From Actinopolymorpha singaporensis (lineage in GTDB: Bacteria > Actinomycetota > Actinomycetes > Propionibacteriales > Actinopolymorphaceae), in the NCBI RefSeq assembly GCF_900104745.1, contig NZ_LT629732.1, positions 2,219,981-2,283,980 of the forward strand: DNA of 64,000 nt. The letters run 5' to 3'. A program made the translations under genes and the position numbers. Below are positions 26,737 through 28,571 of this stretch, piece by piece; position 1 is the stretch's first letter; each line of letters opens with the position of its first letter. The notes below the pieces were generated by a model. It was not told where the DNA came from. It did no database searches and worked only from the letters and a program-made list of their open reading frames with translations.

Positions 26737-27732
26737 TCACAACCCGATCGCCGTCCGGGCGGCGGCGAGTGTCGGAGCGGCGAGTTCCCGCGCGCGTTCG
26801 GCGCCCAGGCGCAGGGTCGCGTCGACGTGTGCCGGGTCCGCGGCGAGTTCGGCGTAGCTGTTCTGCAGCGGCTCCAGAATGCTCACCACCGCGTCGGCGG
26901 TGTCCCGTTTGAGCGCGGCGTAGCCGTCGTACTTCCCGGCGAGGGCAGCCGGGTCGGCCTCGCCGGTGCAGCCCGCGAGGATCTCCAGCAGGTTGGACAC
27001 GCCCGGCCGGTTCTCGGGGTCGTAGCCGACGTCGGGCGAGGCGTCGGTGACGGCGCGGGAGATCTTGCGGACGACCACCTCGGGCGGGTCGAGCAGTCGG
27101 ATGGACCCCAGTGAGTCGGCAGGGGCGTCCTTGCTCATCTTCGCGGTCGGGTTCTGCAGGTCCATCACCCGTGCGCCCACGGTGGCCGGGCTCATCTCCG
27201 GTACGACGAACGTGGGCCCGTACACGCGGTTGAACCGGATCGCCAGGTCGCGGGCGAGTTCCACGTGCTGGCGCTGGTCCTCACCGACCGGCACCTCCGT
27301 ACTTCCGTACAGCAGGATGTCGGCGGCCATCAGCACCGGATAGGTGTACAGCGACACCCGGGTGCGCGGCCGGCCGCGACCCTTCTCCTTGAACTGGATC
27401 ATCCGGTTCAGCTCGCCGACGTAGGCCGTCGACTCCAGGAGGTACATGAGTTCGGTGTGTGCGGACAGGTCGCTCTGTCTGGTGAGTACGCAGACCGCCG
27501 GGTCGAGCCCGGCGGCGAGGTAGATCGTCGCCGTCTCGCGGGTCAGTTGGCGCAGCCGTTTCGGATCGTGCTCGACGGTGAGCGCGTGCAGGTCGACGAC
27601 GCAGAAGACGCACCGGGCGGTGTGCTGCAGGTCGACGAACCGGCCCAGCGCTCCGAGATAGTTGCCGAGGGTGAGCCGGCCGGTGGGCTGGATGCCGGAG
27701 AAGATCGTGCGGTTCGTGGCCGGGTGGTTCAT
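26737..27732 (-). CDS. trpS: Tryptophanyl-tRNA synthetase
   Basis: A 331-residue class Ic synthetase that charges tRNA-Trp. FSGIQPTGRLTLGNYLGA contains the HIGH-equivalent, PVGEDQRQHVELARDLA is the conserved central block, and AKMSKDAP is the KMSKS equivalent. ATG 27732 has AAGGAG 7-8 nt upstream. It is preceded by a 170-nt leader with a Trp-rich peptide and two competing hairpins, described separately; expression is therefore predicted to rise when charged tRNA-Trp is scarce. Confidence 0.96.
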   Translation of the reverse strand: MNHPATNRTIFSGIQPTGRLTLGNYLGALGRFVDLQHTARCVFCVVDLHALTVEHDPKRLRQLTRETATIYLAAGLDPAVCVLTRQSDLSAHTELMYLLESTAYVGELNRMIQFKEKGRGRPRTRVSLYTYPVLMAADILLYGSTEVPVGEDQRQHVELARDLAIRFNRVYGPTFVVPEMSPATVGARVMDLQNPTAKMSKDAPADSLGSIRLLDPPEVVVRKISRAVTDASPDVGYDPENRPGVSNLLEILAGCTGEADPAALAGKYDGYAALKRDTADAVVSILEPLQNSYAELAADPAHVDATLRLGAERARELAAPTLAAARTAIGL

Positions 27733-27790
27733 GGGAGGGCTCCTTGGTCGGTCGGAGCCGCCGCCGCGAGGGCTGCTTCCACACATGCGT

Positions 27791-27914
27791 CGGCCGCCCT
27801 CGCAGGGGCGGCCGCGGATGCTTGGGGTGCGTCGTACGCGGGATCGGGGCCGCCCTAGGCGGCCCACCAACCCAGGGGTCGGAGAACGATCTGCGCACGC
27901 ACCCGACCACAATA
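27791..27914 (-). promoter_or_regulatory. Predicted ribosome-mediated attenuator of trpS
   Basis: On the minus strand, TATTGT (27914-27909) is a -10 element ending 6 nt before the leader-peptide GTG (27902); CAGACA 18 nt upstream of it is a weak -35. Hairpin 1 pairs arm A (27865-27858) with arm B (27854-27847) around the loop TAG, which is the peptide stop. Hairpin 2 pairs arm C (27814-27806) with arm D (27799-27791), 9 bp with a 6-nt loop. B and C share GGCGGCC/GGCCGCC complementarity (7 bp), so A:B plus C:D and B:C are mutually exclusive. The two Trp codons (27869-27864) touch arm A. Stalling there would free B to pair with C and prevent hairpin 2, the terminator. There is no U-tract after hairpin 2. 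Confidence 0.7.
27855..27902 (-). CDS. trpS leader peptide with tandem Trp codons (15 residues)
   Basis: GTG 27902 opens a 15-codon frame, MRAQIVLRPLGWWAA, stopping at TAG 27857-27855. Trp is normally rare, and two adjacent TGG codons directly ahead of a hairpin upstream of trpS are unlikely by chance. The start appears leaderless: TATTGT ends 6 nt upstream, the same spacing as at many genes in this window. The peptide itself probably has no function beyond ribosome stalling. Confidence 0.7.
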   Translation of the reverse strand: MRAQIVLRPLGWWAA

Positions 27915-27947: not shown

Positions 27948-28571
27948 ATGATCCCCGTGGCGAATGTGGAGAACCCGGCGGCCGGGAAGGGCGCCGTCAA
28001 CGCTGCCTTGACAGGGGCCGGAGGCGCGGAGGTGGATGTGAGCCGGCCCGGCGTGGTGGTCCGGCAGGTCGGGCCGGACGACTGGCGGGAGTGGCGGGCG
28101 GTCCGGCTGGCGGCGCTCGAGGAGGCGCCGTGGGCGTTCGGGTCGACGCTCGCGCAGGCGCGGACGTTCGGCGAGGACGAGTGGCGGCGCCGGTTGACCG
28201 GCTTCCCGTGCTACCTCGCCGACCTGCCGGGAGTGGCGGCCTCTCCGGTCGGGATGAGCGGGGCGTTCATCGAGGACCCTGAACCCGGCGAACTCGGCTT
28301 GTGGCAGGGCGGCACCACCGTCGAGCTGGTCTCGATGTGGGTCGGCCCGGCGGCGCGAGGACGCGGGGTCGGCGCGCACCTGGTGGCGGCCGTGGTCGAC
28401 TGGGCCACCCGGACCGGCGCCGCCCGGGTGCACCTGTGGGTGACCGACGGGAACGACCCGGCCCGCCGGTTGTACGAACGCTGCGGCTTCGTTCCGACCG
28501 GCGAACGCGGGCCGCTGCCCTCCGACCCGAGCCTGAACGAGATCGGCATGGTGCGCGAACTCCGGGCGTGA
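27948..28571 (+). CDS. GNAT family N-acetyltransferase
   Basis: A 207-residue protein. VVVRQVGPDDWREWRAVRLAAL is the N-terminal strand-helix, VELVSMWVGPAARGRGVGAHLVAAVVDWA carries the acetyl-CoA motif A (RGRGVG), and VTDGNDPARRLYERCGFVPTGER is motif B. The acceptor is unknown. The start is ATG 27948 or GTG 27957; both follow the same GGAGAGG, and the first about 35 residues are non-conserved. Its promoter region overlaps that of the divergent trpS leader. Confidence 0.88.
   Translation: MIPVANVENPAAGKGAVNAALTGAGGAEVDVSRPGVVVRQVGPDDWREWRAVRLAALEEAPWAFGSTLAQARTFGEDEWRRRLTGFPCYLADLPGVAASPVGMSGAFIEDPEPGELGLWQGGTTVELVSMWVGPAARGRGVGAHLVAAVVDWATRTGAARVHLWVTDGNDPARRLYERCGFVPTGERGPLPSDPSLNEIGMVRELRA

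Follow-up and report, generated by a model that had tools for sequence, protein, structure and literature searches.

The window analysed here is a stretch of 64,000 nt from the genome of the soil actinobacterium Actinopolymorpha singaporensis, and the leader details given below were taken straight off its minus strand. This strand carries trpS, encoding an auxiliary tryptophanyl-tRNA synthetase (TrpRS) of 331 aa without the stop codon (26740-27732; TIGR00233 281.6 bits, cut-off 176.75). A Shine-Dalgarno sequence, AAGGAG, was read at 27740-27745. The genome contains two trpS copies scoring over the TIGR00233 cut-off, of which the other scores higher (343 vs 281 bits) and lacks a leader with adjacent tryptophan codons (a WW leader); a third match is weak (23 bits) and falls under the cut-off. 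The closest named relative is Actinopolymorpha rutila (94% protein identity), and 22 Streptomyces-type TrpRS located by a covariance model share 57-60% identity with the window enzyme in the aligned part. The auxiliary TrpRS of Streptomyces is indolmycin-resistant according to excerpts of two reports (PMC6804068, PMC9437257).

Upstream of trpS, on the same strand, a -10 box TATTGT (27909-27914, read as 27914-27909) stands 6 nt ahead of GTG 27902, the first codon of a leaderless-type leader ORF of 15 codons, GTG...TAG (27855-27902), with the peptide VRAQIVLRPLGWWAA. The peptide ends in GWWAA, followed by the stop codon TAG at 27857-27855, and the two regulatory Trp codons, TGGTGG, occupy 27864-27869. 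The leader continues through four arms: A (GGGCCGCC, 27858-27865), B (GGCGGCCC, 27847-27854; partner A or C), C (CGGCCGCCC, 27806-27814; partner B or D) and D (GGGCGGCCG, 27791-27799; partner C or E). All four were identified by sequence and folding, with additional evidence from the A:B swap test for arm A (z -4.7), from swap tests and footprint geometry for arm B, and from swap tests for arm C. Hairpin 1 (A:B) comprises 8 bp and has a loop of exactly UAG, the leader stop codon, while hairpin 2 (C:D) has, in the window, a loop of 6 nt. The folding energy of the 183-nt leader is -94.6 kcal/mol (z -2.96), a value equalled by 2 of 200 dinucleotide shuffles.

Much of this had been described in an initial annotation. 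Direct reading of the minus strand confirmed its TATTGT box 6 nt before GTG 27902, and the 15-codon frame with adjacent TGG codons and with TAG in the loop of hairpin 1 was found in the sequence as described. The mutually exclusive B:C pairing, given as 7 bp, extends over at least that length. Hairpin 2 has the reported 9 bp but lies 32 nt, and not 33 nt, from hairpin 1. The assigned extent of the leader (27791-27914) encloses the A-D region but stops short of two further arms, E and F (27738-27777).

Arm E (27756-27777, minus strand) is complementary to the C-loop-D stretch, with a predicted core of 27764-27773 pairing with 27796-27805, and is supported by swap tests. Folding also predicts an E/F hairpin (27738-27759, minus strand), in which GGCTCC (27759-27754) pairs with GGAGCC (27743-27738) over part of the trpS Shine-Dalgarno sequence.

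Two other features were observed nearby. An ATG at 27784-27786 is in frame with trpS, 54 nt upstream of the trpS ATG and without an intervening stop, so automatic annotation may begin trpS there, within the leader region. A GNAT-like acetyltransferase frame (approximately 27948-28571, plus strand; family assigned by eye) is divergent from the leader promoter.

Conservation of the WW leader

The conservation of the WW codons in related genera, on which the initial annotation had staked its reading, was borne out. We searched 196 genomes of the order and fetched the 67 best-scoring trpS copies (L084-L150, the window's included) as auxiliary copies. A WW leader frame precedes 66 of these 67; in the exception, L090, WW is still encoded and the stop is displaced (judged by eye). 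Forty primary trpS copies from the order served as a control, 35 belonging to genomes with at least two trpS matches and five to genomes with a single match; within 320 nt, none of the 40 carries a WW leader frame. Of 80 named loci retrieved with the window's TrpRS, 39 have a short WW-terminated frame ahead of trpS, and 23 of the 41 named loci without such a frame carry an Acidimicrobiia-type name. TGGTGG is invariant in the 38-row alignment A1, whose rows had been selected by a TGGTGG search. Together, the counts indicate that Trp attenuation of a spare TrpRS is common across the window's order.

Five leaders carry a single Trp codon, with WR in place of WW (L068, L070, L078, L193, L200), the arrangement also seen in S. 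lividans trpL2. In these the second TGG has become CGG or CGC, and the arms look retained by eye.

Rfam families (T-box, trp leader and others) gave no match at the gathering score in the whole window, and a relaxed threshold (E up to 10) returned eight sub-threshold matches, all far under the gathering scores. Eight chosen loci searched against Rfam yielded a single match, a 16S rRNA in one locus.

Leaderless start of the leader peptide

A non-redundant set of leaders was prepared by removing similar ones, leaving 82 of 105; L002 and L084, which represent the window's own locus, were dropped. A TANNNT box was located 4-9 nt before a start of the WW frame in 61 of the 82, and exactly 6 nt before it in 57. 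The same search on shuffled upstream sequence produced a mean of 4.0 and a maximum of 9 in 200 repeats. A Shine-Dalgarno 4-mer was present at only four of the 61 boxed leader starts. With the box at this distance from the leader start, the leader peptide is probably translated leaderless. The start of S. lividans trpL2 is leaderless by RNA-seq, according to an excerpt of the report (PMC8079986). Translation of the leader without a Shine-Dalgarno sequence, as the initial annotation had proposed, is thus likely on the strength of the box spacing, the scarcity of Shine-Dalgarno 4-mers and the trpL2 RNA-seq. Many of the primary trpS genes (L244-L283) also look leaderless by eye, with a CAGAAT-like box directly before the ATG.

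Covariation of the leader arms

RNAalifold on MAFFT alignments recovered C:D and missed the full A:B and E:F pairings, so swap tests were used instead. A swap test compares the pairing of a leader's own segments with that of segments exchanged among sequences of the same family set; the names of the Kribbella (family f3) and Streptomyces (family f22) sets are inferred assignments. Below, "top" denotes the C-loop-D stretch and F the trpS Shine-Dalgarno region. The first within-family tests on the whole set gave z -4.6 for A:B, -5.7 for C:B and -4.6 for C:D. The compensatory changes anticipated for the arms are visible for C:D in the alignment, and A:B, C:B and C:D all pass the swap tests.

We then scored 66 segment pairs across the leader and the gene start. 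The strongest pairing signals were top:E (z -6.57), E:F (-6.47) and A:B (-4.70), followed by a next value of -2.66; B against the whole hairpin top reached only -2.0. Values of opposite sign extended to +4.8, so unrelated pairs scatter by more than one unit, and top:E, E:F and A:B are still set apart on the pairing side. Over the 82 leaders, top:F (z +1.3) and spacer:E (z +2.0) produced no signal. Under stricter pruning top:E gave -6.9 (n 38), -4.4 (n 20) and -2.6 (n 10), and E:F weakened to -3.2, -2.2 and -0.75 at the same sizes. Gene bases 20-40, tested against E as a control, scored z -2.0 to -2.5 for sample sizes from 82 down to 20, and values near -2 are for this reason untrustworthy.

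The signals were distributed unevenly among the sets. For top:E, z was -6.0 in the Nocardioides-type leaders (n 48), -2.4 in the six leaders of the Actinopolymorpha family and -0.6 in the set taken as Kribbella (n 28). For E:F it was -4.7 in the Nocardioides-type leaders and -4.8 in the set taken as Kribbella. Loop plus D with E scored -5.0 in the Nocardioides-type leaders, +0.2 in the Kribbella set and -0.1 in Actinopolymorpha. The matching segments of the 40 primary trpS copies showed no pairing signal (z +2.3); only 14 of the 40 were usable if a Shine-Dalgarno sequence was required, and the value comes from a rerun of all 40 without that condition.

Folding of the arms E and F

In 78 of the 82 leaders, the best top:E and E:F duplexes have at least 30% of the smaller E-base set in common. 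The arms are thus strung into a chain, A-B-C-D-E-F, with competition between neighbours. The window's own predicted cores, D:E (27796-27805 with 27764-27773) and E:F (27754-27759 with 27738-27743), do not overlap and can coexist.

Equilibrium folding, tried as proof of a translation switch, failed: with B:C enforced, the mean predicted exposure of the Shine-Dalgarno sequence was 0.34 both ways, and exposure was higher in 48 of the 82 leaders. When B:C was enforced on transcripts ending before the Shine-Dalgarno sequence, the loop/D region paired with E in all 82 leaders (mean 10.1 pairs) and did better than with shuffled E in 75; shuffled E still formed 7.6 pairs, which makes the folding evidence for loop/D:E weak. 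A pseudoknot joining the loop to E while C:D persists was discounted by argument, because most Nocardioides-type loops look too short, and it may still apply to the 6-nt loop of the window. We also considered E as a second copy of the terminator hairpin. Visual inspection spoke against this in the window, Nocardioides and Kribbella types, where E matches the complement of the loop and not the loop itself; in the Streptomyces type, E may be such a copy.

C:D is predicted to be more stable than B:C by a mean of 6.0 kcal/mol over the 82 leaders and by 0.3 kcal/mol in the window, where the two states are near-equal in predicted energy (-62.4 and -62.7 kcal/mol). As an intrinsic terminator, the window has the hairpin and lacks the U-tract, D being followed by GACGCATG. 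At least four T among the 8 nt after D were counted in 2 of 6 leaders of the Actinopolymorpha family, 8 of 48 of the Nocardioides type and all 28 of the set taken as Kribbella. On the attenuator reading, transcription in A. singaporensis would end at C:D.

Related leaders in other genomes

Of 394 genomes of the class, 137 contained a match to a covariance model of the A-D arms. A TrpRS gene follows each of the 30 best loci, and 22 of these loci come from genomes presumed to be Streptomyces. Other matches precede genes that were not recognised as trpS. We assembled 41 such leaders (L185-L187, L191-L192, L196, L198-L199, L201-L207, L210, L214-L215, L218-L220, L223-L227, L229-L243) from 59 loci after removing five without a parsed hairpin or start, nine recognised trpS and four with the wrong hairpin (L216, L217, L221, L222). 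In L185 the script chose an out-of-frame WW, and its hairpin, E and F were retained. Because L204-L243 include little coding sequence, a trpS may have gone unrecognised among the 41. Six downstream proteins were profiled: one scored over the trpD cut-off, one over the anthranilate synthase cut-off, and the other four were good matches to anthranilate synthase models, below the cut-offs.

Across clades, these 41 leaders gave z -7.2 for top:E and -6.8 for E:F, with -0.1 for top:F and -1.0 for spacer:E; within clades the corresponding values were -2.1, -4.1, -0.9 and -1.2. Since values near -2 are untrustworthy, within clades only E:F is supported, and top:E rests on differences between clades. 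Among single clades, top:E was +0.8 in the Streptomyces type (n 8) and E:F was +0.45 in one other (n 8).

The Streptomyces-type trpS leaders were tested with 18 of the 22, leaving out L166, L176, L179 and L180. They contain a stretch whose complementarity to the hairpin top averages -31 kcal/mol (n 18) and beats shuffled sequence (z below -1.5) in 13 of the 18. Covariation of top:E was absent in the same 18 (z -0.8). Because the same complementarity would arise from a second GC-rich hairpin, we give it no weight as support. In these loci (L162-L183), the predicted partner of the Shine-Dalgarno sequence and AUG is mostly the stretch directly after the terminator, whereas in the window the Shine-Dalgarno sequence is predicted to pair with E; the post-terminator pairing showed no clear covariation (z -1.0). 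It looks like a different route to the same Shine-Dalgarno site.

Ribosome position and proposed mechanism

The position of the ribosome on the 82 leaders was calculated with an assumed footprint length, the usual value. With the first Trp codon in the A site, the stretch of free RNA opens a median of 1 nt upstream of B, and on the assumed footprint the stalled ribosome does not overlap B in 71 of the 82. With a ribosome at the stop codon, again on the assumed footprint, coverage extends as far as the 3' end of B (median 0, range -6 to 3). A stall that frees B and a stop-codon ribosome that covers it fit what the classical attenuation model requires, given this footprint.

We conclude, at a probability of roughly 80%, that the auxiliary trpS is under a tryptophan-responsive, ribosome-mediated attenuator, as judged from sequence. 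The initial annotation had arrived at the same Trp-stall reading, which now draws support from WW conservation, compensatory changes in C:D, swap tests, the -10 spacing and footprint geometry; its arms A-D stand, and the downstream arms E and F had been missed. The basis of the present analysis is the anatomy, conservation, swap-test covariation and footprint geometry, and from these we infer the transcription start, termination, the effector and any effect on translation.

In the proposed mechanism, RNA polymerase would start at or adjoining GTG 27902, and the leader peptide would be translated without a Shine-Dalgarno sequence. When Trp-tRNA is ample, the ribosome would get to the stop codon in the A:B loop and cover B, C:D would form, and expression would be low. 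When Trp-tRNA is scarce, through starvation or inhibition of the main synthetase, the ribosome would stall on the Trp codons of arm A, leaving B to pair with C, and trpS would be transcribed. With C held by B, D and the loop could pair with E, leaving F free; otherwise E would pair with F and hide the trpS Shine-Dalgarno sequence, so that the translation start would follow the same decision.

For E and F, such a working role is to us a proposition that falls just short of an even bet. With the same reserve, we tentatively suggest that many actinobacteria may use a six-arm domino, in which A:B, C:D and E:F make up the off state and B:C and D:E the on state, and in which a single stalled leaderless ribosome would decide transcription read-through as well as how accessible the Shine-Dalgarno sequence of the downstream gene is, whether that gene is trpS or one for trp biosynthesis.

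Alternative explanations

A plain four-arm transcription attenuator, with E/F as a local Shine-Dalgarno hairpin and the E:top complementarity without a role, is a real alternative to the E/F part of the reading, although we would give it clearly less than an even chance. Its mechanism needs no further parts, and it agrees with the absence of Shine-Dalgarno opening in equilibrium folding, with D:E and E:F cores that can coexist in the window, and with the lack of top:E covariation within the Kribbella set. It leaves unexplained why the top:E and E:F signals exceed A:B over the 82 leaders when top:F and spacer:E give none, why both E signals recur in the 41 other leaders, and why the matching segments of the primary trpS copies carry no signal.

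Actinobacterial terminators with poor U-tracts may still work. This counts against a mainly translational attenuator, in which C:D would be no terminator in this clade and a ribosome stalled on the leader would gate the trpS Shine-Dalgarno sequence by way of the arms A to F. So do the conservation of C:D, the T-rich stretch after it in all 28 leaders of the Kribbella set and the lack of predicted exposure when B:C forms. We regard this version as unlikely, even though the window has no U-tract, the E:F hairpin covers part of its Shine-Dalgarno sequence, and S. lividans trpL2 likewise has no U-rich stretch. Hairpins arise easily in GC-rich DNA, and the WW frame could in principle be a random one beside two unrelated GC-rich hairpins; conservation, the -10 spacing, footprint geometry and the primary-copy control contradict such a coincidence, which we find scarcely credible.

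Relation to known systems and significance

The window leader resembles the E. coli trpL type in its tandem Trp codons in arm 1, its stop codon between arms 1 and 2, a 2:3 antiterminator and a putative 3:4 terminator. It differs in the leaderless-type start, the missing U-tract and two further arms leading to the Shine-Dalgarno sequence of the gene. Attenuation of S. coelicolor trpRS1 has reportedly been described by Vecchione and Sello. The core switch is of an already known type, represented by S. avermitilis trpS2 and S. lividans trpL2: the Streptomyces trpS attenuators are alike in having a short Trp leader, competing hairpins and a TrpRS gene, and in S. lividans also a leaderless start. 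In the excerpted report, trpL2 has one Trp codon (LWRAA) where the window has two, and it lacks a U-rich stretch, as the window does (PMC8079986). Both trp operons and S. avermitilis trpS2 have been predicted to carry attenuators (PMC1262725, in excerpt). Those of the actinobacterial trp operons (Corynebacterium, Streptomyces) likewise combine a Trp leader with GC-rich competing hairpins, at other target genes; in the same excerpt, U-tracts follow all of these terminators, unlike in the window, and E/F arms go unmentioned. We liken the 41 non-trpS leaders, with their E/F signals, to these trp-operon attenuators.

The excerpts of open-licence PMC literature consulted likewise contain no mention of E/F arms. 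The E/F chain is thus the part that we did not find in print; the covarying arms, whose function is putative, make the leader a variant of the known switch. Mycobacterial cysteine-rich leaderless short ORFs are said to have been reported by Canestrari in 2020. An excerpt on candidate ORFs of this kind (PMC4633059) presents a similar arrangement, a leaderless regulatory ORF upstream of presumed targets, with cysteine codons instead.

Overall, the leaders collected here supply a large set of natural leaderless leader peptides. The E/F chain is proposed to tie the start of translation to ribosome stalling, a connection that can be tested and that the four-arm model does not have. At terminators without a U-tract, such a link between stalling and translation could explain how control still works.
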